The notes under the pieces are model-generated. The model ran no database searches. It saw only the letters and a program-made list of their open reading frames with translations, and was not told the DNA's origin. A DNA stretch of 64,000 nt from Candidatus Bathyarchaeota archaeon (lineage in GTDB: Archaea > Thermoproteota > Bathyarchaeia > Bathyarchaeales > Bathycorpusculaceae), in contig JAOULW010000001.1 in NCBI GenBank assembly GCA_029881805.1, forward strand, positions 124,001 through 188,000, written 5' to 3'. This document shows, in pieces, positions 17,489 to 62,042 of the stretch; positions within the stretch are counted from its first letter, which is position 1, and the number at the start of each line of letters is the position of its first letter. The position numbers were made by a program, and so were the translations under genes.

Positions 17489-17499
17489 TCTATCACACC

Positions 17500-19347: not shown

Positions 19348-19858
19348 CTTCTTTTTTTCCTTGAATCTGCTTCAACACCTTACCAGCTCTTGTCGGAGTC
19401 ATTTTGTCAAAATAGCTTTCACCGATGACCATAACTGGTGCTAATGCGCATGCGCCGAGACAGCGGACTGATTGAATTGTGAATTTCAAATTACCAGTAG
19501 TTTCACCATCTTTTATGCCTAGCTCGTTTTCAATAGCCTCTAGAACTCGACTCGAACCTCTCAGATAGCATGCTGTTCCCAGACAGACACGAATGAGATG
19601 CTTACCCCTTGGTGTCAGATGAAATGCATCATAGAAAGAGGCTACGCCGTATACTTGAATCATAGGGATTTCAAGTTTTTTGGATACATACTTCAACGCC
19701 CAAGTAGGGAGATAACCATATAGATTCTCGATTTCTTGTAATATCGCAATTAGTGCTGATTTTTCACCAGAATAGCTTCCAATAATTGCGTCTATCTTAC
19801 CATATTCGAGATTAAGTTCCACAGATTTTTGCTCGGCATCCATATTGGATACACACAC
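19340..19858 (-). CDS. NuoE/HymA-like [2Fe-2S] thioredoxin-fold subunit
   Basis: A protein of up to 172 aa with a helical N-terminal region ([16 protein letters not shown]) and the four cluster ligands [10 protein letters not shown] and CLGACALAP, typical of NuoE/HndA. It pairs with NuoF to form the NAD(P)H-oxidising unit. The frame opens at a GTG (19858); the ATG at 19843 is an alternative, and neither has a strong ribosome site. It is the first gene of a four-gene operon ending in the glutamate synthase. A TATA-like box and a 14-bp dyad lie upstream. Confidence 0.9.
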
Positions 19859-48914: not shown

Positions 48915-49202
48915 TCAAATTCCCAAAGCGGGGGTTGCCAAGCATGGCCAAAGGCGTAGCCCTGAGGCGGCTATCCCGCAGGGGTTCGTGGGTTCAAATC
49001 CCACCCCCCGCACCACCGAATTCGGGGCGTTCCCGGCCCCGCTTCTCGTTTCTGCTCCCTGCAGCCGCCCTATCGCTTCAATCAGGGCGTTCTCGGATAC
49101 CCTGCTGATGTTCAACCCCACCTGCCTAGCGGTTTTCAGGACTCCCCTGTCGATGTACAGGCAGGTCGATTTTCTTTCGCTCATGTTGCCATTCATCCCC
49201 AC
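48915..49202 (-). pseudogene. Probable int(N) remnant: RHH domain reading antisense through the tRNA
   Basis: A 95-codon frame. Residues 7-45 are a ribbon-helix-helix/CcdA-like domain (KSTCLYIDRGVLKTARQVGL, NISRVSENALIEAIGRLQG); then a linker; residues about 63-92 (VGFEPTNPCG, ASGLRLWPC) are the antisense translation of the tRNA-Leu, with a stop just past it. Archaeal SSV-type integrases often start with such an RHH segment and run through a tRNA-derived attP before the catalytic domain; integration splits the gene and leaves int(N) at the tRNA. That fits this frame, and no catalytic domain remains. The promoter/operator at 49219 suggests leaderless expression. An alternative is a stand-alone antitoxin gene that happens to overlap. 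Confidence 0.6.
48928..49012 (+). tRNA. tRNA-Leu (anticodon GAG), CCA encoded in the DNA
   Basis: Acceptor strands GCGGGGG (48928-48934) and CCCCCGC (49005-49011) pair fully, followed by A and an encoded CCA (49013-49015). The anticodon loop CTGAGGC closed by TAGCC/GGCTA gives anticodon GAG (leucine, CUC/CUU). A class II variable arm (TCCCGCAGGGG) and a perfect T arm (GTGGG-TTCAAAT-CCCAC) are present, and the D region starts TTGCCAAGC. No intron is seen. The GC-rich sequence that follows marks the edge of accessory DNA, and a minus-strand ORF reads through the gene. Confidence 0.96.
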
Positions 49203-49211
49203 ATGATGCCA

Positions 49212-49276
49212 TGCGCGCGGGGCTACTTATAGCCCCCTAAGGGAAAGGCCAGAGCGGTCTGCGGAGTAGGAATCAA
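49212..49276. repeat. Copy 1 of a 65-bp GC-rich promoter-like repeat
   Basis: Aligned with 54698-54764, this shares TGCGCG at the start, then CTTATAGCCCCCTAAGG, GCC-GAG-CGGTC with small gaps, and TAG-AATCA near the end. It is the upstream region of the RHH/int(N) frame. The second copy, 5.5 kb away, has no gene behind it. Confidence 0.65.
49219..49236 (-). promoter_or_regulatory. Operator overlapping the TATA box of the RHH/int(N) gene
   Basis: GGGGCTA (49219-49225) and TAGCCCC (49230-49236) are perfect inverted copies 4 bases apart. On the minus strand the centre reads TATAAG, a TATA box about 25 bp before the first ATG (49202), so the message would be nearly leaderless. RHH proteins commonly repress their own promoters through such short palindromes. 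Confidence 0.55.
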
Positions 49277-49404
49277 CAAAGCGATGACCTGTGCATGCTT
49301 GAAAGCGCGCGCCCAGGCTTCCTCCCTCAGCTGACATGTCTACGTCTGCGAAAGTTGCTGTTCTAAACTGTAGAATTAAAAGGCAGAGTTTCAGAATCTA
49401 GCAT
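49277..49404. other. Intergenic accessory DNA
   Basis: This short stretch moves from GC-rich to AT-rich composition and contains no recognisable gene. A weak TATA-like AATTAAAAGG lies near 49372 before the membrane-anchored protein. Confidence 0.35.
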
Positions 49405-50100
49405 GTGAGAAGAGATATGCAATTTTTGAGTTGGCTTACCAAAAACCCTAGACTGACTACTATTTGCATTTGTCTTGTTTTGCTCGTTCTAACGCCAATT
49501 TTCTACTGGACAATAATAGAAAGTCAAGAGGCACACGAGCTAGAGCCATCGATGATTCATTTCTTTCATTTCACAGAATTGCTTAGTAATGAGACTTTCA
49601 TGGACGTCTGGAACAAAACAAAGGATTTGGATGTTACGGCTGAATTTTCAAGGAATACCGACTATTCTGTTCTGGTCTACGCACACTATTATGCGTGTGG
49701 GGGGTTCTCCGGTGCTGAATGGTTTGTAGTTGCGTCAACTCTGGAGCCCGACAGCGAAGGAAATATCCACGAGCTAGTTCTGAGGCTTGACTATGAAAAC
49801 TCGACGCTCATAAAACCTTACCTACAGACTCACAGCTTCAATCTCACTTCTGTTGAAAACGGAACAAGGATAATAGAAGATTTCATGGCCCAAGACCCAT
49901 ATCAATACTGGTCCAACCCTAGAGAGGAAAACTTTCACGTTAATTATCCATTCTTGATTCTCTTCATTTTTCCAATCGACTACGGCATAACAGTTGTTTT
50001 GAACCTTAACACCGGGAAAGTTATGATAGCTGCTACGAGCGTCTGGATGGGGTATGGTTACCTAGTCTACCCAGAGAAAATATACGACGTAGGTTCTTAG
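49405..50100 (+). CDS. Membrane-anchored protein of unknown function
   Basis: A 231-aa protein with one N-terminal helix (LTTICICLVLLVLTPIFYW) and an outer domain rich in aromatic residues, with sequons (NET, NKT, NST, NLTS, NGTR). A second hydrophobic stretch near residues 182-197 (FLILFIFPIDYGITVVL) may be buried strand. The N-terminal GTG/ATG choice (49405 or 49414) is open. I recognise no family. It is followed by high-GC debris and two other membrane proteins on the same strand, so it may be cargo of the accessory region. Confidence 0.55.
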   Translation: MRRDMQFLSWLTKNPRLTTICICLVLLVLTPIFYWTIIESQEAHELEPSMIHFFHFTELLSNETFMDVWNKTKDLDVTAEFSRNTDYSVLVYAHYYACGGFSGAEWFVVASTLEPDSEGNIHELVLRLDYENSTLIKPYLQTHSFNLTSVENGTRIIEDFMAQDPYQYWSNPREENFHVNYPFLILFIFPIDYGITVVLNLNTGKVMIAATSVWMGYGYLVYPEKIYDVGS

Positions 50101-50158
50101 AGCAGAAACTGAAATCTTCGATGATTGAACCATAACCAGGGAGAACACCCGCTGGAAC

Positions 50159-50275
50159 TCATCTGCCTCTCCGCCAAGCCCCCAGCGACTCGAGCAGGAT
50201 CGCCTGTCCGCGAAGCGCGTCGCGCTCTTCCCCTGCGTTGAATAGATATCGCGACACACAAAGTCGCATATACAT
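50159..50275 (-). CDS. Mini-ORF A (38 aa) in GC-rich DNA, paralogue of mini-ORF B
   Basis: The frame reads MYMRLCVSRYLFNAGEERDA and then a Leu-rich, basic helix (GQAILLESLGAWRR). It shares RYLFN-x-EER and the upstream sequence with the plus-strand ORF at 50394, so the two diverge as an inverted pair. There is no good ribosome site. It may be a remnant of a longer high-GC gene and not a living one. The base composition differs sharply from the neighbouring chromosome. Confidence 0.35.
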   Translation of the reverse strand: MYMRLCVSRYLFNAGEERDALRGQAILLESLGAWRRGR

Positions 50276-50286
50276 CAGTTGGGGGT
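50238..50286. repeat. Left arm of a 49-bp imperfect inverted repeat
   Basis: Compared with the reverse complement of 50383-50431, about 36 of 49 positions agree, with no gaps: the outer TTGAATAGATA and the inner ATACATCAGT and GGGGT are nearly identical. The arms enclose 96 bp. Similarity extends outward (GCGCTCTT-CC on both sides), so the unit is either a MITE-like element or a diverged inverted duplication of one coding segment. Confidence 0.65.
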
Positions 50287-50382
50287 AGATATGTAGCGCC
50301 CGCAGACCGCAGCCTGCAGTGCCCCCTCATTACGGACAACCCTTCTGACCCTGAAAACCTGTCAAAACAGGCAACCATATGC

Positions 50383-50431
50383 ACCCCTGACTGATGTATG
50401 TGCAGCCTCGCGCCCCACGCTATCTATTCAA
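50383..50431. repeat. Right arm of the 49-bp imperfect inverted repeat
   Basis: Reverse-complement partner of 50238-50286. It contains the start of mini-ORF B. I see no target-site duplication and no transposase between or beside the arms. Confidence 0.65.
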
Positions 50432-50540
50432 TTATGAGGAAAGAGCGCTATGGGCGACAGCGACAAGGAAGGCCCTGGCCTGCATCGGGGTCAATCAACT
50501 CTGCTGGCTCCCGGGCGGACCGAAGGTTTACGGGTTGTAA
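50394..50540 (+). CDS. Mini-ORF B (48 aa) in GC-rich DNA, paralogue of mini-ORF A
   Basis: The frame starts MYVQPRAPRYLFNYEERALW, continues ATATRKALACIGVNQLCW and ends GGPKVYGL. The first 30 residues align with mini-ORF A (RYLFN, EER, a following Leu/Ala helix). The stop TAA is at 50538. The lack of a ribosome site and the GC-rich composition suggest imported and decaying DNA. No known family is recognised. Confidence 0.35.
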   Translation: MYVQPRAPRYLFNYEERALWATATRKALACIGVNQLCWLPGGPKVYGL

Positions 50541-50764
50541 TGATTTGCTTCATTAGGATGTTAAGCTACGAAACTTGTGTTTGCGATGTTGAGCGCGTGT
50601 ACTAGTGCGCAAAGTCAAATCCTTGTTGGACCATGTTGACAATTGTGGTGGGGAAAACGCGCTTTGCAGATTACTGCTTGTCTTCGGCTTTGTTGATTTT
50701 CTGATTATCCACAAGAAATAAGAATGGGTTTTCGTCCAAAGGTTAAATAGAGGTTAAAGTGTTT
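50541..50764. other. Intergenic stretch between accessory debris and a membrane protein gene
   Basis: GC content falls back to the chromosomal level. I see no coding sequence. AGAGGTTAAAG just before 50759 is a possible ribosome site for the next gene. Confidence 0.4.
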
Positions 50765-51808
50765 ATGAAAAAGGAAACTGTTTGGTTCATACCCTCTCTT
50801 GCGTTGGGCATTATTTGGTCGTTTCTTATTATGTATTTTTTTGACAGGGTTATAGGAGGCGGATTTTATGTCATAATTGTCTTTGTGGTATTTCCTCTTT
50901 GCATTGCATTATACGATATTCTGCAAAGAGGGAAGAAGAGCATTCAGATGACTTTTCTAGCAACTCTTATAGCATCGGGAGCTTTTCTTGGCGGATTAAA
51001 CCTCGGACTTTTTGAGTCCATGACCATATTAGAAGACAGCATAATCGACATATCAAACAGTGTTATTACACTTCACATCCGCAACACTGGGTTGTCCGAC
51101 ATACAAATAACAGAATTGACTTTCGTCAATATGGAATTCACCATTCGCCCATCAGACCTCAACCCCATTTACTTGCCTAGAGGAGCAGAGTCATATTTGC
51201 AAATCAATTATGCTGAAGAAAGGTTCTCATTGCACGATAAACTAGACTCAATAGGTGAACATTACAACTGGGAGAGAGACGACGGCCACTATACATCTAT
51301 CGTTGGCGCTACGCCACTTACATTTCACAATGGAAGCACATATTCAGTGACTTTCCACACAAACAGCTTATTCCATCACAGCTTTCCTTTGGAAGCAAGG
51401 CTTACGTCTGAAGAATCACTTGAATTATTTAAACAGTTCACTTTCAAAACAGATTCATATGTTGACATCACTCTCTATCTCAACAACACAGGAGCCACTG
51501 CATGCTATATCTATACAATTCAAATCGTAAATGTAACATTTCGTTTTAGACCTGCGCTTGCTGTCTGGATAGCGGAGGGAGAATACCCGCATTACTCCCC
51601 TGACTTAATTATAACAATATCCAGCGCACATGACAAAGGATTTGGCTATAAAATTTACGAAGGCTCATGGATGCACCAATACGAGATAACAGCCGAACCT
51701 ACACCAACTATATCCATGTTTCAAGAAAACGAGACCTACAAGCTTACATTTTTGACCATGGGAAATAAGTACTATGTATTCAACACAACCATAATAAGGT
51801 CACCTTGA
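50765..51808 (+). CDS. Membrane protein with N-terminal helices and a beta-rich outer domain
   Basis: A 347-aa protein. Three hydrophobic helices occupy residues 5-75 (FIPSLALGIIWSFLIMYFF and YVIIVFVVFPLCIALYDIL, then FLATLIASGAFLGGL), followed by an outer domain built of two similar beta units (VITLHIRNTGLSDIQITELTF and DITLYLNNTGATACYIYTI), the style of CARDB/DUF-type repeats. GTG 50759 or ATG 50765 may be the start; AGAGGT upstream favours the ATG. I do not recognise a family. It is followed by another membrane protein on the same strand. Confidence 0.6.
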   Translation: MKKETVWFIPSLALGIIWSFLIMYFFDRVIGGGFYVIIVFVVFPLCIALYDILQRGKKSIQMTFLATLIASGAFLGGLNLGLFESMTILEDSIIDISNSVITLHIRNTGLSDIQITELTFVNMEFTIRPSDLNPIYLPRGAESYLQINYAEERFSLHDKLDSIGEHYNWERDDGHYTSIVGATPLTFHNGSTYSVTFHTNSLFHHSFPLEARLTSEESLELFKQFTFKTDSYVDITLYLNNTGATACYIYTIQIVNVTFRFRPALAVWIAEGEYPHYSPDLIITISSAHDKGFGYKIYEGSWMHQYEITAEPTPTISMFQENETYKLTFLTMGNKYYVFNTTIIRSP

Positions 51809-51909
51809 AATCACGCGGGAAGGGAAAAATTGGCTTGGCGCCCGCTCTGAGATGTCCTTAGAGTTCAATTTAAGTAAGCGAAAAGTGATATGTGCTTGTG
51901 TGAGTTATC

Positions 51910-52599
51910 ATGTTTGGTCGTCTTGCGAAGGACCGAGTAGAATTGCTAGTTGTATTTTTTAGTGTGGTAGGTTTAGTGCTTGTTGTGTTAGGGGCTGTTG
52001 TAGAAATGCCTTACACTGTGAAGGAGACGTTCAACAACTATCCGTACAATCCTGTAAGTTTATGGGCGAACGAGACCATAACGCTGCGGCCAGGCGATTC
52101 CCGAATCTACAATTTAGATATCATAAACATGAACAACAGCATCATATACGTTCTAGTGGAAAGAACCACTAGCCCCATAATCATGGAAATAGATGGACCT
52201 TCTGGCGTGGGGTTTTATAACGTGAGTGAAAGAACCATTAACAGACAACATATATGGTACGCATCGCCAGTTAACCCGTTCGAATTTTACTGGACACCGA
52301 CATATAATACAGGATGGGATTTCGTTTTCTACAATCCATTTGACGTGACAGCCAACGTTACGCTTACAATACTCGATTACCGGTACAATGTAGAATGGCA
52401 GCGGAACGTGACCCACTACAGTCCGCCACTCGACAGAACATTCGCATATGGCGGAATCATCCTTGTGGCGATCGCTGTAATACCAACAGCATATGACCTC
52501 TACAAAACCAGAAAAGAAAAACAGAAAAAGGCGTTCTGGCAAGGAGAAGCGTACGCACAGAAAATGCGCGAACAAGAAGAAAAAGGAAAACTCAAGTAA
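51910..52599 (+). CDS. Two-helix membrane protein with an extracellular beta domain
   Basis: A 229-aa protein with helices near residues 10-31 (VELLVVFFSVVGLVLVVLGA) and 180-200 (YGGIILVAIAVIPTAYDLY) flanking an outer domain with sequons, and a charged cytoplasmic tail rich in Lys and Glu (KTRKEKQKKAF... QEEKGK). The layout resembles archaeal envelope proteins with an emp24-like or GOLD-like beta domain between helices, but this is only a topology comparison. It follows the 50765 gene by about 100 bp. Function is unknown. Confidence 0.6.
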   Translation: MFGRLAKDRVELLVVFFSVVGLVLVVLGAVVEMPYTVKETFNNYPYNPVSLWANETITLRPGDSRIYNLDIINMNNSIIYVLVERTTSPIIMEIDGPSGVGFYNVSERTINRQHIWYASPVNPFEFYWTPTYNTGWDFVFYNPFDVTANVTLTILDYRYNVEWQRNVTHYSPPLDRTFAYGGIILVAIAVIPTAYDLYKTRKEKQKKAFWQGEAYAQKMREQEEKGKLK

Positions 52600-52627
52600 T
52601 CATACCTAGCGCGCGTACTTTTGTGGT

Positions 52628-52783
52628 CTATGCGATGTTTCTGAGTATCGTCTCGGCCCCCTCGGACGCCCTGCCCCCGAGGTCCCCTATCCACGCGGGG
52701 TTGAAGTAGTTCCGCATGAACACGCTCGAGCTTATCAATGTCAAAGCTAGTGCTACTTTCCAATTTTTTAGTTTTTCAAACAA
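52628..52783 (-). CDS. Tiny membrane protein (51 aa), third gene of a mini-operon
   Basis: Frame from TTG 52783: a short basic start (FEKLKNWK), one hydrophobic helix (VALALTLISSSVFM), then RNYFNPAWIGDLGGRASEGA and an amphipathic end. AAAGGAAAC lies just upstream as a ribosome site. The 3' half is much richer in GC than the 5' half, so it may be a junction between chromosomal and imported sequence. It lies downstream of the zinc-ribbon mini-gene on the same strand. Family unknown. Confidence 0.45.
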   Translation of the reverse strand: MFEKLKNWKVALALTLISSSVFMRNYFNPAWIGDLGGRASEGAETILRNIA

Positions 52784-52836
52784 ACTGTTTCCTTTCTACT
52801 ATCGATCGCTGTTTGAATGGAACTTGCTTGCCTATT

Positions 52837-52998
52837 TCACTTTTTTGGATGATAACGCGGGAAGGAGCAATCAGCACAGATCTCTTTATTCGGTCCGCTA
52901 TCTTTGTGACCCATCTTACAGGGCAGATATTCTCCATTACTCGTTCTAGCTTGATAGTTGCATGGCTCACAACATCTCTTGGATTTCTCACTCGCCAT
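52837..52998 (-). CDS. Small zinc-ribbon-like protein (53 aa)
   Basis: Frame from ATG 52998: KRCCEPCNYQART, then YLPCKMGHKDSGPNK and ICADCSFPRYHPKK. Cysteines and His fall as CC-x2-C, C-x3-H, C-x2-C, enough for one or two zinc sites. The ATG overlaps the end of the upstream charged ORF by 11 bp, a sign of a compact operon. Neither frame in the other direction shows such a pattern. Known families I can recall do not match exactly. Confidence 0.55.
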   Translation of the reverse strand: MASEKSKRCCEPCNYQARTSNGEYLPCKMGHKDSGPNKEICADCSFPRYHPKK

Positions 52999-53132
52999 CT
53001 AAAACTTCTTTGAATTTCCTCGCGCGCTCAGACACTCGGATTTTTTCATCGCTTTTGTCCTTTTCTTTTCTAGCCTTCTCAGCTCTATCTCTTTCAGCCT
53101 TTTCAGCGCGATCAATCTCTTTTCTGCTCATT
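52988..53132 (-). pseudogene. Charged coiled-coil mini-gene with a one-base frameshift
   Basis: From ATG 53132, preceded by AGGGGATT, the frame runs MSRKEIDRAEK and then stops because of an A5 run at about 53100-53104 (written as T5 on the plus strand). With one base removed it continues AERDRAEKARKEKDKSDEKI to VLDGE, a repeat-like Lys/Glu/Arg helix in phase with the first part (RAEKAERDRAEKA). Either the base is an assembly error in a homopolymer or the gene is decayed. A TTG at 53116 could still express the last 42 residues. A TATA-like GAGTTTAAATCC lies upstream. Confidence 0.5.
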
Positions 53133-53250
53133 CAATCCCCTGATTCTGTATCTGTAGAAGAGGATTTAAACTCGTCGTTATCTGTCAATTTCTAAATCAG
53201 CACGCGCTGAGTGAGTGTGAGCGAGTAAGAGTGGTTGAGAGCGTTTAGTT

Positions 53251-53289
53251 TTTTGGGTTTGGGGTTCAAATTCCACCCAACCAACACCA
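53251..53289 (+). repeat. tRNA-3'-half-like remnant A
   Basis: TTGGGTTTGGGGTTCAAATT followed by CCACCCAACCAACACCA contains a T-loop core (GGGGTTCAAATTCC) flanked by inverted TTGGGT/ACCCAA and ends in ACACCA, like a tRNA tail. The 5' half of a tRNA cannot be folded. It lies 55 bp before the DUF457-like gene. Confidence 0.4.
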
Positions 53290-53344
53290 TCTTATCGCAA
53301 ATAATAAGAACTGAAGCACAGCAGGCTTCAAGTAGGTGAACACC

Positions 53345-53770
53345 ATGTTCATTGGGCACTTTGCTGTAGGTCTGGCTTTGAAAAGAGTGGGCAAGGCTCT
53401 CTCGTTGGGGCTATTGTTTATTGCCGTTCAACTCCCTGACCTGATCTATGGAGTCACCCTCCTGACTGGCGTGGAGAAAATCAACATCGTTGCAGGCACC
53501 AATCCACTCACTTCGGCTGAATACATCTTCTTTCCGTACTCCCACAGTTTAGTAGCCATTCTGCTCTGGGCAGGACTGGCTGCCCTCATATTCCTCATAG
53601 CCCCACTCAAGTCAAGCCTGCCCAAAAGCAAAACCGCACTAGTCATGGCAACGGCCGTACTGTCACATTTCACCTTTGACGTCATAGTCCACAACCTTGA
53701 CATAGATCTGCTCGGCAACGGCGCCTACAAAGTCGGCTTAGGCTTATGGAACTTTCCCCCACCTCCATAA
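53345..53770 (+). CDS. Membrane-bound metal-dependent hydrolase-like protein (YdjM/DUF457 type), short
   Basis: A 141-aa protein with MFIGHFAVGLALKR at the N-terminus, a buried acidic pair in QLPDLIYG, PYSHSLVAIL and SHFTFDVIVHNLD, the His/Asp pattern of the YdjM/DUF457 membrane hydrolase family, and about four helices. The family usually continues with one or two more helices; here it ends at GLWNFPPPP, suggesting truncation. The ATG at 53345 has TAGGTGA at ideal distance, so it replaces the GTG at 53336. It follows tRNA-like remnant A. Confidence 0.75.
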   Translation: MFIGHFAVGLALKRVGKALSLGLLFIAVQLPDLIYGVTLLTGVEKINIVAGTNPLTSAEYIFFPYSHSLVAILLWAGLAALIFLIAPLKSSLPKSKTALVMATAVLSHFTFDVIVHNLDIDLLGNGAYKVGLGLWNFPPPP

Positions 53771-53884
53771 GGAAAAGTGAAAAAGCGTAAACTTTTCATG
53801 TTTTTCTCGAACTAAATTCAACATTAAGAAGTAAGTTGCGACTTAAGGATAGCCTGCTTCTATTAGCTGGCGGAGCGAGCTTCT

Positions 53885-54607
53885 TCATTTGAGATTGGAA
53901 TCCTTGGCACATCGGAAACCCACGTTAAAATCCACCCAGTTCGCTGGAAGTGCATTTCTGTAGTATACCGTGCTGCAATACGGCCCCGAGTGCCAGCCAC
54001 CTCCACGGATCACCCGAAATTTTCCAGACCTAGGCCCTTGTGGATTCGCCGAAGGACTTGATGAGTAGTAGTTCCGATCGTAAAAGTCCAAGACCCACTC
54101 GACAACGTTTCCTTGCATATCATAAAGACCGAAACCGTTTGGCGGATAGCTACCAACCGCGACCGGACCCCCCTTGCCTGACTTTGTGTAGTTCCCACGG
54201 GAGGGATTAAGCGTGTTACCGTTAGGGTAGTTCATTCCCGCTAGTCCTCCCCTCGCAGCATATTCCCACTCGGCTTCGGTGGGAAGTCTCTTGCCACACC
54301 ACAGGGCATATTTGACGGCGTCGCTCCAACTTACTCCAATCACCGGATGGTTCTGGTAGTCTAGGCCACACCGGAAACCTTCCATATTCCAGAACTCTGG
54401 TAGTCGGTGTCCCGTTACTTCGCAGAACTTCAGGTATTTTGTGTTGGTTACCTCGTACTTGTCCATATAAAAGGTGTCAATGTATACTTTATGAACGGGA
54501 TTGTGATCCCCCTCTGAATCCGAGCCCATAAGGAACTCACCGCCGGGAATCAATGCAAGCTCCTCCGTAATATTGGTCATTTTCCGTTTCTTCTTTGAAT
54601 TACCCAT
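53885..54607 (-). CDS. Formylglycine-generating enzyme (SUMF1/EgtB) family protein
   Basis: A 240-aa FGE-sulfatase fold protein. Signatures are IPGGEFLMGSD, MDKYEVTNTKYLKF, HPVIGVSWSDAVKYALWCGK, RLPTEAEWEYAARGG, NGFGLYDMQGNVVEW and RGGGWHSGPY with VGFRCAKD at the end. Real FGEs oxidise a Cys in sulfatases to formylglycine using two cysteines late in the domain; here candidate cysteines are in PYCSTVYYRN and GFRCAKD, so the spacing does not match clearly. No sulfatase is in the window. It may be another member of this broad family (EgtB-like, PvdO-like or a retroelement-associated protein). It lies near duplicated and tRNA-like debris. Confidence 0.82.
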   Translation of the reverse strand: MGNSKKKRKMTNITEELALIPGGEFLMGSDSEGDHNPVHKVYIDTFYMDKYEVTNTKYLKFCEVTGHRLPEFWNMEGFRCGLDYQNHPVIGVSWSDAVKYALWCGKRLPTEAEWEYAARGGLAGMNYPNGNTLNPSRGNYTKSGKGGPVAVGSYPPNGFGLYDMQGNVVEWVLDFYDRNYYSSSPSANPQGPRSGKFRVIRGGGWHSGPYCSTVYYRNALPANWVDFNVGFRCAKDSNLK

Positions 54608-54697
54608 GAAATCGACCTCAGCAAAACTCTCTAGTTTACAATCTTTAAATAACTAACGCCACGCGGATAACTTTTTTGAACAACTACCACTCTTAAA

Positions 54698-54764
54698 TGC
54701 GCGGGCGGCTGCTTATAGCCCCCTAAGGAAAAAGCCGAGGCGGTCAGCTTGCATAGAATCACAA
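54698..54764. repeat. Copy 2 of the 65-bp GC-rich promoter-like repeat
   Basis: Matches 49212-49276: TGCGCG, then GCTTATAGCCCCCTAAGG, an AAGCCGAGGCGGTC segment, and TAGAATCA near the end. Its palindrome is imperfect (GCGGCTG versus TAGCCCC), and no start codon follows at the expected distance on the minus strand, so it looks like a promoter whose RHH gene has been lost. Confidence 0.65.
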
Positions 54765-55056
54765 CACGCGCATAACCATATTTGATGTGAGACAATGGGA
54801 AATTGTAAAAATCATCTGTGAAAATTCAGTTAAAAATCCTTTTTTTCCAAAAACTGAAAAGTACAGCGCTCAGCAATAGAAAGAATGTTGCGTCAACAAC
54901 GTTTCTTGCAACTTCTTAACTCACCACCACAGAATTCTATTTGTGATGAGTGAACTCCTCCCGAGTGGTCGATCGCTCACAAGTCTTGTATTCAAGATCA
55001 CCTTAGTCTAACTCGGTAAGTCAAAAAACACGAAAAGTCGATTAATCGTTAGGACT

Positions 55057-55106
55057 TCGGGAGATATCGCCACTTGGGCTGGGTCCAAATCCCAGCTACC
55101 CCACCA
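55057..55106 (+). repeat. tRNA-3'-half-like remnant B
   Basis: Contains GGGAGATATCGCCACTTGG, then a perfect T arm CTGGG-TCCAAAT-CCCAG (55079-55095), a 7-base acceptor-like strand CTACCCC and ACCA. The complementary 5' acceptor GGGGTAG is not found within 150 bp upstream, so it is a partial or rearranged tRNA. Confidence 0.5.
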
Positions 55107-55179
55107 CAATAAACCCCGCCGGACAGTTACTTCCGCAAATCATAGAAAAGGAATGCTCTGCTAAATGCGCCCGCAATAG

Positions 55180-55851
55180 CTAGTGAGTTTTAATGAACAG
55201 CTCCATCGGGAATGGCTGACCGTGCCCAGGGTACACGGTGTTGATTTGTAAGCGTTTCAGTTTTTCGATACTGTTATGCGCTGCAACTTTGTCATCTATA
55301 ATGGACCAGACCTCTGGTTTGGCTACATTGGCCAGCAGATCACCGCAGAACAGGTCGCCGCTGGCTGTCAGGATGCCTATTGAACCCTTTGAGTGCCCTG
55401 GAATATTAAGAACTTTAGCGTCGAATCCATATCCAGAGAAATCGTATCCCTCGTCGATATATAAATCGGGTTTAAACCTGTCCGATTTACTTAACCTGAA
55501 GAACAACCTAAAAATTATTCTGATGAGAATGTTCTGTTTGTTTCGATTCCATAACATGTCTCCGCGTTCGACCATTCCGGAATCGTCCTTGTGCATGGCT
55601 ATTTCTATACCGAATTTTTGCCGAAGGTACCCAGCATTACCGCAGTGGTCAAAATCACCATGAGTTAGTACGATCAGCTTGAGATTTCCAGGCAGGCAGC
55701 CCACGCTAACAAGTTCTTTTTCGATCGTGCCGCGTTTGTTGGTCCTCCCCGCATCGATCAGGATAAATCCATGGCTTGTTCTGACAAGGTAGCAATTGAC
55801 AGAGACATTAAAAACAAAAGGCATAGCGATAGTGTTAATCTCCAAAGTCAT
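55180..55851 (-). CDS. MBL-fold metallo-hydrolase
   Basis: A 223-aa metallo-beta-lactamase fold protein. The metal motif is LTHGDFDHCG, a form of HxHxDH in which the second His is Asp, a variant found in many MBL hydrolases. Later ligands are in IPGHSKGSIG, FCGDLL and YPGHGQPF. Family members hydrolyse thioesters, lactones or similar; the substrate is not defined here. It is flanked by tRNA-like remnants B and C, on the strand opposite to them, and has no obvious operon partner. Confidence 0.85.
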   Translation of the reverse strand: MTLEINTIAMPFVFNVSVNCYLVRTSHGFILIDAGRTNKRGTIEKELVSVGCLPGNLKLIVLTHGDFDHCGNAGYLRQKFGIEIAMHKDDSGMVERGDMLWNRNKQNILIRIIFRLFFRLSKSDRFKPDLYIDEGYDFSGYGFDAKVLNIPGHSKGSIGILTASGDLFCGDLLANVAKPEVWSIIDDKVAAHNSIEKLKRLQINTVYPGHGQPFPMELFIKTH

Positions 55852-55966
55852 TTGAGTCTCCTGTGTTCAAGGCGGTTATAACAGTGGGCGCATATTCAGT
55901 CTAAGTGTAAATCGAGATTTAAGGCTTGTTTGGCATGAACTTTCAAACAGAAAATGGGGGTTTGCT

Positions 55967-56000
55967 GGTGATATCGCCCCGGAGTAGTGGGTTCAAATCG
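55967..56000 (+). repeat. tRNA-3'-half-like remnant C
   Basis: GGTGATATCGCCCCGGAGTA is followed by GTGGGTTCAAATC, which is identical over 13 bases to the T-arm start of the tRNA-Leu at 48928. The 3' side of the stem is missing. It lies about 30 bp before the ArsC-like start. Confidence 0.4.
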
Positions 56001-56031
56001 ATTATTGCGCTTAGTTTGAGTGGTTGAGAGG

Positions 56032-56433
56032 ATGAAAGTTCTCTTTGTCTGTGCAGAAAATGCTGAAAGAAGTCAAATGGCAGAAGCCTTTGCCAACCAT
56101 TACGGTCAAGGGAAGATCGAGGCAACAAGTGCAGGCACTATGCCAAAGAGTGAGGTAAACCCTTTGGTTGCTGAAGCAATGCAAGAGAAGGGAATTGATG
56201 TGTCAAAGAATAGGCCAAGGCTCGTGACCAACAAGATGGTTCAAGAAGCAGATATGATAATTGTGATGGGATGCAACGCCCAAGGATTCTGTCCTGCGCC
56301 TCTGCTAAACAAAGTCGTGGATTGGGGAATTGAAGACCCAAAAGACAAACCAATAGAGAAAGTAAGAGAAATCAGAGACGAGATAGAAAGAAAAGTGAAG
56401 CAACTGATTGAAGAAAGCGAAACCAGAACTTAG
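56032..56433 (+). CDS. Low-molecular-weight phosphatase/arsenate reductase-like protein
   Basis: A 133-aa protein of the LMW-PTP/ArsC fold: FVCAENAERSQMAEAFANHY gives the P-loop (C-x2-N-x2-R-S), VSKNRPRLVT the substrate strand, and the catalytic Asp is in DWGIEDPKD. In thioredoxin-type arsenate reductases two more cysteines are required; Cys in MGCNAQGFCPA (two residues) may fill that role. It could reduce arsenate or remove phosphate from protein tyrosine. ATG 56032, after GAGTGG, is chosen over GTG 56020. It partly overlaps a longer reading of the peptidase gene, but not with the start preferred there. Confidence 0.82.
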   Translation: MKVLFVCAENAERSQMAEAFANHYGQGKIEATSAGTMPKSEVNPLVAEAMQEKGIDVSKNRPRLVTNKMVQEADMIIVMGCNAQGFCPAPLLNKVVDWGIEDPKDKPIEKVREIRDEIERKVKQLIEESETRT

Positions 56434-56491
56434 AGTTCCGTTGTCGGGAGAAATCTCCAACGAGTGTTCCGTTCAAATCTTACCTCCCCAT

Positions 56492-56502
56492 AGCCTTTAT
56501 AA
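56492..56502 (+). promoter_or_regulatory. TATA box deciding the start of the M28 peptidase
   Basis: CTTTATAAATT lies about 45 bp before GTG 56543, inside the longer open frame. A transcript starting 25 bp later could not include the upstream ATG at 56408, so the GTG start is supported. Confidence 0.55.
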
Positions 56503-56542
56503 ATTGTTAGGAACAATTGGTAGGAAAAGGAGAGCGTCTAGA

Positions 56543-57814
56543 GTGAAGTTTTTTGACGCCGGTTCAGCGTATCATTTCATGGAAAGGCTTGTCAAAGAAA
56601 TTGGAAACCGAGAATCAGGGACAGACTCAGAACGTCGAGCAGCACAACAAATCAAGGCATGGTTTGAAGAGTTTGAACTTGCCAACGTAAGAATGGAAGA
56701 GTTTGAGGTTCAGACGAGCCGCATTCTAAAAGAAGAGGTTTCGCTTCCAGACGGCACACAACTTGAATGCGCAGCAGTTGGAAATTCTCTATCAACTCCA
56801 CCACAAGGCATCGAAGGAGAAGTGGTCATGTTGGAGTCAACGTCTTCGGGAGCGCTAAAAAACATAGAGAATAAAATCGCTGCTTTAAGCGTAGTGCTCT
56901 ATGAAAAAGATTTCTGCAAAGTCATGAAAGCTGGGCCTCAAGCTTTGATCTATCCTTCGCGAACCCCATTGGCGCCTACTATCTACCGTTCTATCAGGGC
57001 TGAATATGTTGAAAAGCAAAACATCCCAGCCGTATCCATGGCTCACGATGATGTACTGAGCGTGTTGAAGGGCCCGAAGAGGCTCAAGATAATTACAGAA
57101 GTGCAGAGCGTAACCGCCAAGAGCCAAAACGTTCTGGGCGAAGTGCCAGGATCTCTCGAAGATGAAGATATACTTGTTGGTGGACACTATGACACTGTCC
57201 GAAGCGTTATGGGTGCGCATGATAATGCCGCTGGAACCGCAGTGATGCTCGAATTGGCAAGAATTTTCGCGCATGAAAAACTGAATCGCAAGCTGAGGAT
57301 AGTAGCATTTGGCTCTGAGGAACTTGGACTGCGCGGTTCCTTTCATCACGCTGAAAACCCTGATAACACCAAGAATCTCACGCTTTGCTTTGACTTCGAT
57401 GTCCATGGCATATTGCTGGGGACACTGAACGCCGTTGTTCTGGGACCAGAGGAGTTGAGGTCACTCCTGCGCTTCACAGCCAAAGAGCTTGGAATACCTC
57501 TCCAAGTTACCAACGAGTTGGGAATGGGAGGTTCAGACCACATGCCTCTAGCCTTTTATGGTGTTCCTTCTGTTATGCTATCACGCGCAGGAGGAGCCGC
57601 CCAAATAATGCACACAGAACTTGAAGACCTCCGTTGGTGCGGTTCAGACGCTTTCATCTCCATAGGTAAGTTGAGCCAAACTCTTTTGGAGCGTTTGCTA
57701 AGGGCTGAAGAGTTGCCATTTGAAAAAAAGGTTCCAAACGACATCACTAAAGCGATTGAGAAGAGATTCGAAGACTCAGGGATCAAAAAGAAAGCAAAAG
57801 AAGGAGTAGAGTAA
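56543..57814 (+). CDS. M28 family aminopeptidase
   Basis: A 423-aa dinuclear zinc peptidase. Metal ligands appear in VGGHYDTV, GAHDNAAGTAVML, SEELGLRGS (with the general-base Glu), CFDFDVHG and the late His in MHTELEDL. A protease-associated insert of about 110 residues lies between the N-terminus and the catalytic domain. The frame is open from 56408, overlapping the phosphatase-like gene, but those 45 codons do not resemble the family, and GTG 56543 has AAAGGAG and a TATA box (CTTTATAAATT) in front, so I use it. No signal peptide is seen, so it is probably cytoplasmic. Confidence 0.88.
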   Translation: MKFFDAGSAYHFMERLVKEIGNRESGTDSERRAAQQIKAWFEEFELANVRMEEFEVQTSRILKEEVSLPDGTQLECAAVGNSLSTPPQGIEGEVVMLESTSSGALKNIENKIAALSVVLYEKDFCKVMKAGPQALIYPSRTPLAPTIYRSIRAEYVEKQNIPAVSMAHDDVLSVLKGPKRLKIITEVQSVTAKSQNVLGEVPGSLEDEDILVGGHYDTVRSVMGAHDNAAGTAVMLELARIFAHEKLNRKLRIVAFGSEELGLRGSFHHAENPDNTKNLTLCFDFDVHGILLGTLNAVVLGPEELRSLLRFTAKELGIPLQVTNELGMGGSDHMPLAFYGVPSVMLSRAGGAAQIMHTELEDLRWCGSDAFISIGKLSQTLLERLLRAEELPFEKKVPNDITKAIEKRFEDSGIKKKAKEGVE

Positions 57815-57830
57815 GGGCATAGAAAAAGAA

Positions 57831-57885
57831 GGGTCTGCGGGAGACCTCTCCACTTACAGTGGTGTTCGAGTCCCACCTCCAACAA
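57831..57885 (+). repeat. tRNA-3'-half-like remnant D
   Basis: GGGAGACCTCTCCACTTACA, then GTGG-TGTTCGAGTC-CCAC (57859-57876), then CTCCAACA. The T-arm-like hairpin and tail resemble remnants B and F. The 5' half of a tRNA is not present. Confidence 0.4.
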
Positions 57886-57985
57886 TTTTTGGATACTTTC
57901 TACTACATCCTGAGGGCTATTTGGTCGACAACGGAAACTTTATCTTGAGTCAAAGACAATAAGAGCCTTCAATGGGTGATGACTT

Positions 57986-58141
57986 TTGCCTAAAATGTGC
58001 CCATTTGCATTTTCCACTGGAGTACCTGGGAAACGAGTAGTTGGCAAAGGAGTGCCAAGGGACTGCCAAGAAGATAAGTGTGCGTGGTGGACAGGCACAG
58101 AATGTGCTGTCTTGAGGGTTGCCAGAAACTTGGGAAAATAA
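57986..58141 (+). CDS. Cys-rich small protein (51 aa)
   Basis: From TTG 57986, with GGTGATG just upstream, the frame reads MPKMCPFAFSTGVPGKRVVG, then RDCQEDKCAWWTGTECAVLR and ends VARNLGK. Four cysteines in C-x21-C-x4-C-x7-C, with the strongly conserved look of CxxxxCAWW, suggest a metal- or iron-sulfur-binding site. It is clearly coding by composition but too short for length filters. The family is not known to me. It sits between remnant D and remnant E. Confidence 0.65.
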   Translation: MPKMCPFAFSTGVPGKRVVGKGVPRDCQEDKCAWWTGTECAVLRVARNLGK

Positions 58142-58408
58142 CCTTAATGTTGCTTGCATGCAGCTGACGAAATAAGGCAATCGAAGAAAGGGAGTTGCGA
58201 GAGATATCGTGGCTTAGGTTTACTGGAAGCTTCACAAGATTAGCCTTGAGTAGAAAATTACTACGTCTTCTCTTGCGTTTTTTGAAGAGTTTGGCTAGGT
58301 CAATGCCGATTACGCATTGAAAAATATCTCGCCTAAAATGGAATCCATTTCCTTCGCCTCAATAGACACGATAAAGGTTTTGAATCAAACCATCCGAATA
58401 ACTGTCAG
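58142..58408. other. Intergenic stretch with weak tRNA-like remnant E
   Basis: Around 58191-58230 the text GGAGTTGCGAGAGATATCGTGG resembles the AGATATCG core of remnants B and C but lacks a T arm. The rest is AT-rich with a possible TATA (CGATAAAGG) near 58370. No ORF of note. Confidence 0.35.
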
Positions 58409-59152
58409 ATGATTATCATGAAATTGACATACAACGACATATTCAAGCACTCAGATAGGTTGAACCCTATATCCGCCAAAACCTTACTGTCAGCAGGCAG
58501 ACTTGCCCAATTCAGACCGGAAAAGACTCTTCTAGACTTAGGTAGCGGCAAAGGTTTTCCCTCCTTACTTTGGGCAAGTACATTTGGCATCAAGATTGAA
58601 GGGTTCGACCTTAACAGAAAATATGTCAACTATGCCAACTCTTATGCCAAACTGCTCAACCTAGAACATATAGCAAAATATATGTGCCGGGATGTTAGGC
58701 GGCTGAAACCTAGTCACAAATATGATATAATAGCTTCTCTAGGAATCGGCATAACCGAAGTCTATGGCACTGCAAAAACAGCACTGGAAAACTTTAAGCT
58801 AATGACAAATCCAGGCGGCTTCTTAATGTTAGGAGAACCAGTTTGGCTGGTCAGACCGGTTCCTAAGACAGTGCAGAAAGCTTTAGAGACGCCTGAAGAA
58901 AATCTTTGCGCCAAGGTCGAGATGGAACACGTATTGGAGGACTGCGACTTTCAGGTGCAAGGATCCTTTGTATCAACCAAAGAAGATTGGGAATACTACA
59001 TAAGACCAGTACATGTTGCCATGCAAGAGATAATGAAAAGTCAACCAGAGTTGTCAAGCGAAAGTCAAGCAATAATGAAAGGCTTCCAGGCTGAACATAG
59101 GGCAGCTGGAAAACATTGGGATATGATTCTGTGGGTGGCCAAATCTAGTTGA
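58409..59152 (+). CDS. Class I SAM-dependent methyltransferase
   Basis: A 247-aa methyltransferase: motif I LLDLGSGKGFPSLLWAS, acidic strand FDLNRKYVNYA, motif II/III IIASLGIGITEVYG and NPGGFLMLGEPVW. The C-terminal third has aromatic segments (EDWEYYIRPVHV) that would shape a small-molecule pocket. The pattern resembles UbiE/Cyclopropane-type enzymes, and the substrate is unknown. Start ATG 58409 or 58418; neither has a good ribosome site, so a leaderless message is likely. It belongs to the accessory block. Confidence 0.82.
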   Translation: MIIMKLTYNDIFKHSDRLNPISAKTLLSAGRLAQFRPEKTLLDLGSGKGFPSLLWASTFGIKIEGFDLNRKYVNYANSYAKLLNLEHIAKYMCRDVRRLKPSHKYDIIASLGIGITEVYGTAKTALENFKLMTNPGGFLMLGEPVWLVRPVPKTVQKALETPEENLCAKVEMEHVLEDCDFQVQGSFVSTKEDWEYYIRPVHVAMQEIMKSQPELSSESQAIMKGFQAEHRAAGKHWDMILWVAKSS

Positions 59153-59466
59153 CGACGCTGCTGAAAAGAAATTATTACCTACCCCTTGCTTCTAGACAAA
59201 CACAAACAGAAAATGGATTTTCAGGCTAGATCAAGCTTATTGTTTCGATTTTCCATTTTCCTGCTTCAGAGTTACATGACTTGACAATAGTACAGGAGTT
59301 CGAGCGTGGATTTATTATGAGTCTCTCCAGCGTCTATGCTAATCTAAGCCCCTTTCGAAAAATCTTAATCAACTATTGTTAATACTGTTATCAGTGCACG
59401 CTTACACATTCTTGTGATTACTCGAGTTCTGGCGGGCTTCACGCGTGTTTATTTCTCTTTTTTGCT
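59153..59466. other. Intergenic stretch without a recognisable gene
   Basis: A 314-bp region between two converging genes (58409 on the plus strand, 59467 on the minus strand). Several T-rich tracts could act as terminators for both. I see no coding sequence, hairpin of note or repeat. Confidence 0.4.
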
Positions 59467-59931
59467 TTAGTCTTTTGGCACTTCAGTTCTTTCGAGCGCC
59501 CTCTTTGCTAGAGTTTCTCCAAGTTTTTTGCAGATTTTCTGATTCTCTTCGCTGGGTTCTCCTTGGGAGACTAGGCCGTCAGCTACTTTCTCCAGTCTGA
59601 AGGAGGAAATCATCTTTTCCAAGCTCAACAGAGCAGAGTTGCTGGCTCCGCCGCCTGAAGTGAAGGCTGCACTTGGTTTTCCAGCAACTTTTTCTCTTAT
59701 GCTCAAAGCTTTGTCAAAGAAGTCCTTAATGAGTCCAGCCATATAACTGAAGTAGTTTGGAGATCCGAAGGCTACAGCGTCACAAGAGACAAAGTCGTGA
59801 ACAGTTGCATAGTCAACACGCTTCACTTTAGCTGAGGCTCCCTCAACACTTTCAACGCCCTGAGCAATCCAGTTTGCTAGAGTCTCAGTTCTACCAGACC
59901 TGGAATAATACAAAACTAACACTTCAACCAT
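59467..59931 (-). CDS. Flavodoxin family protein
   Basis: A 154-aa flavodoxin-fold protein with the FMN phosphate loop VLYYSRSGRTETLANWIAQG, SCDAVAFGSPNYFSYMAG and FTSGGGASNSALLSLE, the WrbA-like pattern. It probably shuttles electrons or reduces quinones with FMN. It stands alone on the minus strand. Another flavodoxin-like protein is encoded at 60185, so the accessory block carries two flavoproteins. Confidence 0.88.
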   Translation of the reverse strand: MVEVLVLYYSRSGRTETLANWIAQGVESVEGASAKVKRVDYATVHDFVSCDAVAFGSPNYFSYMAGLIKDFFDKALSIREKVAGKPSAAFTSGGGASNSALLSLEKMISSFRLEKVADGLVSQGEPSEENQKICKKLGETLAKRALERTEVPKD

Positions 59932-60060
59932 GTCAAATCTCCCACATCATACTTTACCTCACTGCACAATATAATTCTAATCCCAAACCTGGCGGGCTCC
60001 CTGTAAGAACTTTCAAAAAAGCTGAGGCTTTGTATGCTTGCAAAAAGAGGCAATTGTGCA

Positions 60061-60106
60061 GGTAATATCTCACGGAGTGGTCGGTTCAAATTCACCCCAC
60101 CTCACA
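60061..60106 (+). repeat. tRNA-3'-half-like remnant F
   Basis: GGTAATATCTCACGGAGTGG, then TCGGTTCAAATTCA and CCCCACCTCACA, again a T-loop core (GGTTCAAATTC) with a partial stem (GTGG/CCAC) and a tail ending CACA. It lies 80 bp before the flavoprotein at 60185. Confidence 0.4.
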
Positions 60107-60184
60107 GGCCGACTGAACCTCTATAACTATTCAAAAAGATTATATTGAACATGCATCGTTTTTTCAACTGCTTGAGGAATAGTT

Positions 60185-60898
60185 TTGATCAAAGTAGTAG
60201 CCATTAATGGAAGCGCCAAAATGGAGAAGGGTAACACTGCACTGGTTCTGGCGCCCTTTATCGACGGCATGAAGAAAGCTGGGGCGTCTGTTGAACTATT
60301 TTATGCAAAGCGCCTTAATGTTAAACCTTGTACAGCTGAGTTTTATTGTTGGAATAAGAAGCCAGGTCAATGTCACATTGACGACAATATGCAGATGCTT
60401 TATCCCAAGCTACGCAGGGCCGGCATACTCGTGTTGGCCACACCTGTCTATATTCCTTTGCCGGGGGAGATGCAGAATCTGATTAATAGGCTGTGTCCTC
60501 TTTTTGAGCCTATTTTGGAGTTCCGAGAGGGTCGCACACGTGCTAGGTTTCATGCTGGAGTTAATATTCGCAAGATCGTCTTGGCGTCGACATGTGGTTG
60601 GTGGGAGATGGGTAATTTTGGCACTGTGCTTCGGATTGCTGAGGAGTTTGCAAAGGATGTGAATGCTGAATTTGCTGGTGCCGTCCTGCGTCCTCACGCT
60701 TATCTAATGCGTGGGAACGGGGAAAAAGTGAAGAATGTGACAGACGCGCTGAGGCAAGTTGGCTACGAGCTTGTGAGGAAAGGGCGAATGCCTAAGAAGC
60801 TCCTCGAGGTTACTGGTCAACCTCTCATTTCTGAAGAAGAGTACAGACGCAGTCTTAATGACGACTATGAAAAGGTGAAGAACAAGGAAAAAAGCTAG
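60185..60898 (+). CDS. NADPH-dependent FMN reductase/flavodoxin-fold protein
   Basis: A 237-aa protein. FMN-binding VVAINGSAKMEKGNTALVLA starts it, and ATPVYIPLPGEMQNLINRL is the second flavin contact. Between them CTAEFYCWNKKPGQC resembles the Cys-rich loop of iron-sulfur flavoproteins, but the spacing differs from the usual C-x2-C-x2-C, so cluster binding is uncertain. TTG at 60185 fits the N-terminus. It ends 4 bp into the convergent peptidase gene at 60895. Confidence 0.85.
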   Translation: MIKVVAINGSAKMEKGNTALVLAPFIDGMKKAGASVELFYAKRLNVKPCTAEFYCWNKKPGQCHIDDNMQMLYPKLRRAGILVLATPVYIPLPGEMQNLINRLCPLFEPILEFREGRTRARFHAGVNIRKIVLASTCGWWEMGNFGTVLRIAEEFAKDVNAEFAGAVLRPHAYLMRGNGEKVKNVTDALRQVGYELVRKGRMPKKLLEVTGQPLISEEEYRRSLNDDYEKVKNKEKS

Positions 60899-61821
60899 CC
60901 TTTTTGTTTACTGAATCTTTTTGTTTCAACATCTTTGATGAACTTGACTAGGGTGCTGAAGTATGTTTCTTGGTCATCATACATGGAAAGATGGCTTCCT
61001 TTTTCGCAAACGACAACGCGTGAATCAGGTATAAGTTCGCCCATCCTTTGGATGTCTTCCATGCGCATTGTGTCATAACGTCCTACTATGAGGAGCGTTG
61101 GAACTTTGATGTTTTTAATTTCATTCCATCTATTCCAATCTTTAAATGTGCCTGTGATAACGAACTCGTTCGGACCTTGCATAGTATTATACACGTCAGC
61201 ATTCAAATTCCTAAAGGCTCGCTGAAAAGGTTCAGGCCAAGGACTGAGGCGGCAAACATACTTCGAGTAAACTTGGCTTAGTAAGACATTTTGATATTCT
61301 TGTGCTCCATATTCTTCTTTAGCTTCGTACTTCTCCATAATCTTTCTAGTTTCTTGTGGAAGTTTCTGACGGAGCTCGTTAATATATTTAACATACGAGG
61401 CGATGCTTGCCGTCATATTCGATATGACCAAAGCTTTGATGTGCCTTTGATATTTCAGAACATATTCAATTCCTAACATTCCGCCCCACGATTGTCCATA
61501 CAAATAGAAGTTGTTTAAACCAAGAGTAACTCTCACTTGTTCTACTTCCTCCCGAAAACGGTCAATAGTCCACAGAGTCTTATCTTTTGGCTGGTCGGAA
61601 TAGGCAGATCCAAGCTGGTCGTAGTAGTAAAATTCAATTCCCGCCTGTGGCAAGAAATCTTCGAAGCATTCAAAGTATTCATGAGTGGCGCCAGGTCCTC
61701 CGTGTAGCGTAAGCATTTTTGTGTTGCTATTGCCTATTTTTTTCGTCCAAACATTATACTTACCGTCAACATGAATTATCTTAACACCGCCAGTTTTTAC
61801 TTCTCCATGAAAATTTTTCAT
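60895..61821 (-). CDS. pip: Proline iminopeptidase-like alpha/beta hydrolase
   Basis: A 308-aa alpha/beta hydrolase with TLHGGPGATHEYFECF (oxyanion region), the nucleophile Ser in GQSWGGMLGIEY, the Asp in VGRYDTMR and His in CEKGSHLSMYDD. The alignment feel is proline iminopeptidase (removes N-terminal proline). The protein overlaps the 3' end of the flavoprotein gene by 4 bp in convergent orientation. A TATA box is not obvious upstream. Confidence 0.9.
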   Translation of the reverse strand: MKNFHGEVKTGGVKIIHVDGKYNVWTKKIGNSNTKMLTLHGGPGATHEYFECFEDFLPQAGIEFYYYDQLGSAYSDQPKDKTLWTIDRFREEVEQVRVTLGLNNFYLYGQSWGGMLGIEYVLKYQRHIKALVISNMTASIASYVKYINELRQKLPQETRKIMEKYEAKEEYGAQEYQNVLLSQVYSKYVCRLSPWPEPFQRAFRNLNADVYNTMQGPNEFVITGTFKDWNRWNEIKNIKVPTLLIVGRYDTMRMEDIQRMGELIPDSRVVVCEKGSHLSMYDDQETYFSTLVKFIKDVETKRFSKQKG

Positions 61822-61925
61822 AACACCACAATACTATTGTTTCACATGAAAATTAATCCTTTTCCATACATTCTCGTGAAGCGCGTGCTTACGAGCTTAG
61901 TGTGAAATGTCTTGTATTGAATCGA

Positions 61926-62042
61926 ATTTATAAGGAAGTGTGTATATTATGGGGGGAGTAACGTTCTGTCGTCGACGAACAATAAGAAAAACACAGCAAC
62001 GTTACGCACCACGGTCAACAACAGAAAAAGGAGTGATGTAAA
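61926..62042 (+). promoter_or_regulatory. Alba promoter and structured leader
   Basis: ATTTATAAGG (61926-61935) is a TATA box about 105 bp before the Alba start. The leader then has inverted copies GTAACGTT (61958-61965) and AACGTTAC (61998-62005) that can form an 8-bp stem around an inner palindrome TCGTCGACGA (61969-61978). GGAGTGATG precedes the TTG start. The stem may steer translation of this abundant protein or bind Alba itself. Confidence 0.5.

Follow-up and report, generated by a model that had tools for sequence, protein, structure and literature searches.

Three very small open reading frames lie packed on one strand of an archaeal chromosome: do they form an operon, or do they have separate origins? 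The question arises in a 64,000-nucleotide stretch of the Candidatus Bathyarchaeota archaeon assembly GCA_029881805.1, hereafter called the window (genome G000, contig C10 in our numbering). The original prediction, made from the sequence of the window, described a mini-operon of a frameshifted charged coil, a zinc ribbon and a one-helix membrane peptide, and proposed that it might be a small defence or regulatory unit or the cargo of a mobile element. Here we compare the three frames and their surroundings with related genomes.

Layout of the three frames

Three short frames of 47, 53 and 51 aa are indeed present on the minus strand (Table 1), and a TATA-like sequence, in keeping with the one TATA box proposed for the set, is found ~30 nt upstream of the coil ATG. 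The head-to-tail overlap holds for the coil and ribbon frames, which share 11 nt, and fails for the third frame, whose TTG start is separated from the ribbon stop codon by a gap of 53 nt. The coil had been regarded as frameshifted at a run of five A residues at about 53100–53104. A frameshift at this point is ruled out because no such run exists there: runs of at least five A residues on the minus strand between 52601 and 53400 occur at 52764–52769, 52772–52776, 52841–52846, 53041–53046 and 53249–53254. The coil frame is uninterrupted from its ATG through SERARKFKEVL, and the change of frame sits instead at the junction of coil and ribbon.

Table 1. Features of the locus, in window coordinates
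Feature	Position	Strand	Remarks
tRNA-Leu (GAG), integration target	48928–49015	+	
int(N)-like frame	48915–49202	−	CcdA-type domain (PF07362, E 5.6e-6), then translated tRNA 3′ end (VRGVGFEPTNPCGIAASG)
Integration island	49016–62040	.	~13 kb; right edge between 60.1 kb (last relic) and 62.0 kb (from G029) or 63.2 kb (from G014)
Third frame ("membrane peptide" of the original prediction)	52783–52628	−	51 aa, TTG start
C-terminal remnant of SSV-type tyrosine integrase	52637–52735	−	ISSSVFMRNYFNPAWIGDL...; inside the 51-aa frame 52628–52783
Zinc-type ("ribbon") frame	52998–52837	−	53 aa; CC-x2-C, CxxGH, CxxC and H by eye
Coil frame	53131–52988	−	47 aa, 66% K/E/R/D; fewer repeats than in G095
Leader	53132–53201	−	70 nt before coil ATG; TATA-like GAGTTTAAATC at 53163–53173
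Decayed tRNA-Leu 3′-end copy, attR-like	53255–53289	+	Score 39
Decayed tRNA 3′-end copy	55080–55107	+	Score 36; T-arm and CCA recognisable by eye
Decayed tRNA 3′-end copy	55972–55999	+	Score 31
Decayed tRNA 3′-end copy	60071–60105	+	Score 30

Coil and ribbon are one frame in a related genome

Homologues with preserved frames had been named as a check on the original prediction, and one is found in G095, a genome of the same order and another family. It matches the ribbon at 71% identity (E 1.4e-22), with paired cysteines, and the matching region closes a 156-aa frame that opens with a charged coil. Coil and ribbon are thus unsplit in G095, which argues against a set of three genes. The G095 coil consists of a 54-bp repeat (18 residues) in 4.8 copies; the window coil retains both ends with fewer repeats, its last residues, given above, facing SERARIFEEVL in G095. 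Comparison of the two places the frame change of the window near 52990–53000, and neither window half contains an additional stop or change of frame. As judged from this comparison, we conclude that the coil and ribbon frames are the two halves of one small-protein gene with its own putative archaeal promoter, read in this assembly as two overlapping frames. Given the strength of the G095 match and the conserved leader described below, we take both frames to be beyond chance.

The 53 codons of the ribbon pair differ at the first position in 11 cases, at the second in 10 and at the third in 19, and the NG86 method gives a dN of 0.212, a dS of 0.951 and a dN/dS of about 0.22. These values, from a single pair of 53 codons with a high dS, fit purifying selection on the ribbon tip. 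In the 156-aa protein a single helix is predicted for residues 3–113, with block-mean pLDDT values of 91–98 to residue 90 and lower values beyond. The structure predicted for the ribbon is poor, with an AlphaFold pLDDT of 57 for the ribbon alone and block means of 42–53 within the full G095 protein; the spacing of its Cys and His residues suggests that it binds zinc, as a prediction accompanied by a poor fold model.

The leader and its likeness to a chaperonin leader

The window leader aligns with the leader of the G095 coil-ribbon gene with a score of 55, whereas 3929 random 70-mers taken from other loci score at most 35. There are three copies of this leader in G095: the first precedes the coil-ribbon gene, the second lies 961 bp further along, and the third is upstream of a gene for a chaperonin (PF00118 match, 3e-53). 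The window leader aligns with the chaperonin-side copy with a score of 55 as well. By eye, the leader ATG upstream of the chaperonin starts a short frame out of register with that of the chaperonin. The G095 copies are 92–135 nt long (L002:1104–1195, L002:2065–2199 and L099:1485–1619); the first two lie on either side of the coil-ribbon gene, and a short coding start, DVRAQIEE, is shared by the second and third.

A leader search in 11 genomes returned strong copies in G095 only. In the window's own genome the only matches had E 0.575, and even the leader of the window itself was missed. Since no good copy was found there, either the link with the chaperonin is weak or the search is insensitive. 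That the coil-ribbon gene and the chaperonin have a common promoter of a stress type is a fair guess from these alignments and not a result. Upstream of the coil leader, positions 53208–53262 show a 55-nt GT-rich similarity of 80% to L021:1501–1555 on contig C25 of the same genome, which may reflect low complexity.

An integrase end within the third frame

The third frame had been read as a membrane peptide. The usual cut-off for 19-residue hydropathy is about 1.6; the best value in this frame is 1.11, and we rejected a membrane peptide in favour of an integrase end. A search of 100 genomes, the window's own among them, yielded matches to the frame in 19 at E up to 0.1. The matches occupy 24 rows, two of them from the window's own genome, and 16 of the 24 fall in open frames of 265–392 aa; in translated examples the match lies at the C-terminus of an integrase frame. 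Several of these integrase frames appear by eye to start with a translated tRNA end. Among the full-length relatives, L030, L035 and L027 score above the PF16795 cut-off and L036 below it; the 51-aa frame itself has no Pfam match. The remnant of 33 aa is 76% identical to an integrase on G029:C157, and the DNA is 77% identical, with differences mostly at third positions. This G029 integrase matches PF16795 and bears 55 nt of the same tRNA-Leu at 98%. The full-length integrase has nothing that corresponds to the hydrophobic stretch of the 51-aa frame. We conclude from these homologies that the 51-aa frame, too, goes beyond chance, and that it is an integrase end and not a membrane gene.

The rest of the integrase catalytic region was not found nearby in the island. 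Leaving aside the tRNA-derived start, the island contains one other integrase match at E <0.01, at 57052–56900 (28% to L030, E 0.003); it runs antisense to an M28 peptidase gene and was treated as chance. The intact integrase L030, used as a query against phages, led nowhere. Elsewhere in the window's own genome, L022:1498–1602 (G000:C20) is a second decayed integrase C-terminus with an internal stop, and L039 (G000:C24:10562–11014) is a 318-aa open frame above the PF16795 cut-off and possibly an intact integrase.

The third frame has no counterpart in G095 at E up to 0.1. One PF16795 remnant occurs in that genome, on a different contig from the coil-ribbon gene, and no integrase remnant was detected in ~15 kb to the left and 8 kb to the right of the gene, where the only matches had E 0.39–0.43. 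The coil-ribbon gene is therefore not tied to integrases, because its G095 copy has no integrase remnant nearby.

An integration island at tRNA-Leu(GAG)

The suggestion that the frames are the cargo of an element has held up: they sit inside a tRNA-Leu integration island with integrase remnants. The window was scanned for matches to the tRNA 3′ end, with windows over the tRNA excluded. At a score of at least 30, a cut-off chosen after the scores had been seen, four sites were found, all on the + strand of the island (6 of 128 overlapping windows), against none of 505 windows outside it on the + strand and none of 633 on the − strand. The best score outside the island on the + strand is 24. The int(N)-like frame at the left border runs into the tRNA, as the int(N) of a suicidal integrase should.

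Seventeen tRNA-Leu loci from relatives, together with two further stretches, served for comparison. On the left flank, glnA is found beside the tRNA in 7 of the 17 loci and lrp in 8, many of the stretches being too short to reach glnA. On the right flank 16 loci were compared, L079 being omitted as its contig stops at the tRNA. The right-flank genes (window 62.0–64.0 kb) occur in the same order in three of them, G014, G002 and G029, and were unseen in the other 13. Both flanks are syntenic in G014 and G002; G029 has neither lrp nor glnA in the stretch examined. The G014 counterpart of the gene at window 63157 lies only 336 bp from tRNA-Leu, with 3.9 and 9.8 kb intervening in G002 and G029, respectively. 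From the synteny of the flanks and the 336-bp spacing it follows that about 13 kb (49.0 to ~62.0 kb) is extra in the window. The site in relatives is thus empty or differently filled; that the right-flank genes were unseen near the tRNA in 13 of the 16 loci weighs against this account.

The first of the tRNA relics lies just beyond the coil-ribbon gene. The gene thus occupies the stretch from the integrase stub to the right end, where the middle part of the integrase would be expected. Islands of this kind are known; excerpts of PMC6563490 describe arrays of elements that re-use one site. The integrases, the TATA-type leader and the neighbouring genes all point to an archaeal origin.

Several further observations concern this region and its relatives. 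Positions 50759–51808 encode a 349-aa island protein which, besides itself, has three short, weak matches (E 1.7e-4 to 9.8e-4) in 256 genomes. In G017, one of the 13 loci without the right-flank genes, the genes next to the tRNA (L091) match window positions 16940–19795 instead (16.9–19.8 kb), 30 kb to the left of the window tRNA-Leu, pointing to a rearrangement or to another element. Each of the tRNA-Leu matches at G060:C1:7487–8157 and G020:C11:282516–282928 is broken at a single point, by about 584 bp in the first and 301 bp in the second, which may represent large tRNA introns. The contigs of G033 (L079) and G022 (L097) end exactly at tRNA-Leu or a partial copy of it, as expected for insertions with a common attachment site.

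Distribution of the coil-ribbon family

A search with the 53-aa ribbon in 100 genomes, its own included, had hits at E up to 1 in 18, with strong matches only in its own genome and G095. The weaker matches (E 0.01–1, 16 further genomes) were rejected: many carry internal stops, none survived at E up to 0.001 when the class was searched with a profile, and the best-looking of them, L004, falls in no listed gene. The two-member profile matched 2 of 256 genomes of the class (E up to 0.001); among 398 genomes sampled from the phylum, the window's own genome alone matched.

Searches of Pfam, PHROGs and NCBIfam with the three window frames gave no match at E up to 1, and the same holds for the two-row ribbon profile against the PDB. 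The G095 protein has weak coil-type matches only, below cut-off (Pfam, E 0.066 and worse; NCBIfam, E 0.62; PADLOC, E 0.0068). A small defence unit finds no backing in PADLOC, which gave no match at E up to 0.01 for eight window frames tested; the regulatory unit suggested alongside it could still apply. No further family member was detected in viral contigs searched by protein, profile and pattern, in phages searched with the G095 protein or in plasmids searched with the ribbon. Genome contigs searched by profile and pattern returned nothing, and as the two known members were missed too, this silence is uninformative. In the libraries searched, the coil-ribbon family is an orphan by sequence, new but small, and literature searching cannot find it by its sequence.

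Discussion

Taken together, we favour, with a probability of about 0.7, the view that a split small-protein gene lies inside a dead SSV-type element at tRNA-Leu(GAG). The anatomy of the locus is the firmest part of this account, and we hold it with high confidence. The coil-ribbon gene would take the place of the part of the integrase that runs from the right attachment site to the catalytic-tyrosine end, and the 51-aa frame would be the surviving end of that integrase. From its place beside the intact tRNA, the dead element would be the most recent of the insertions lined up at tRNA-Leu(GAG).

What the protein does can be put forward only tentatively. A long charged α-helix, its length varied via the 54-bp repeat, would serve as a spacer and bear a C-terminal tip predicted to bind zinc. 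Expression would proceed from a promoter of the kind found before the chaperonin gene and may accordingly be a response to stress, and the protein might then bind nucleic acid or a protein partner. We consider this the most likely role, though less likely than not. A bolder version, in which the coil-ribbon gene acts as a stress cassette that brings its own promoter, is coregulated with the chaperonin and spreads between archaeal genera, and in which its landing in int(C) locked the element in the chromosome permanently, strikes us as improbable.

The state of the window copy is what the closest alternatives turn on. The break in its frame may mean that this copy is dead, in which case the leader and the two halves would persist because the break is recent. 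Its short coil, its frame broken relative to G095 and its setting among decayed tRNA ends and integrase stubs all speak for a pseudogene, whereas the freedom of both halves from further stops or frame changes and the conservation of the leader speak against one; we give this reading serious weight, at somewhat less than even odds. Less probable, and in our judgement unlikely, is that fission of the ancestral gene left coil and ribbon as two true genes in the lineage of the window, translationally coupled via their overlap. Both frames are open and have their own ATG, the ribbon starting just ahead of the coil stop, and the ribbon bears the mark of purifying selection, though this is measured across the whole divergence from G095. 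However, no good ribosome site precedes the ribbon ATG by eye, and a recent frame break or an assembly error would give the same picture in what is one assembly only.

The three-gene defence or regulatory operon with a membrane peptide, as originally conceived, draws on the common strand and tight packing of the frames. We regard it as very improbable: the third frame holds an integrase end, its hydrophobic stretch is foreign to the full-length integrase, PADLOC offers no model at E up to 0.01 for the eight window frames, and G095, whose PF16795 remnant is on another contig, has no counterpart of the third frame at E up to 0.1. A split gene within a dead element accounts for the locus better. 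On that reading, the locus adds to the known archaeal protein families a small one whose leader is conserved and whose size gene callers overlook, gives an example of a single gene resembling a mini-operon, and preserves clear traces of SSV-type elements having inserted repeatedly at a single tRNA gene.

Likeness to known systems

Single charged α-helices of the ER/K type form a known class of protein element. The coil-ribbon protein resembles them in its 18-residue repeat rich in K, E, R and D and in its one predicted helix, and differs in adding a C-terminal cysteine-rich tip. It also recalls Brz of Halobacterium salinarum, which, as characterised in excerpts of PMC2253796, is likewise a very small archaeal protein with a zinc-finger-type motif; in the coil-ribbon protein, in contrast, a long charged helix precedes the zinc-type part, and the likeness is one of description and not of compared sequences.

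The closest parallel for the locus as a whole is with elements that carry suicidal, SSV-type integrases (PF16795, Phage_integr_3). According to excerpts of PMC8371274, the attachment site of these elements lies within both the integrase gene and a tRNA gene, and integration splits the integrase gene into int(N) and int(C). Two parts of this plan are seen here: the remnant matches full-length integrases, three of which pass the PF16795 cut-off; and the attachment site lies within the integrase gene and in a tRNA gene, as illustrated by the tRNA-Leu segment in the G029 integrase and by the int(N)-like frame of the window. The layout from attL (whole tRNA) to attR (tRNA 3′ end) is less plain, the attR-like copy being decayed and three more copies lying to its right. 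What sets the window apart from other SSV-type elements is that its int(C) is cut to a 33-aa stub, with the coil-ribbon gene in its place.
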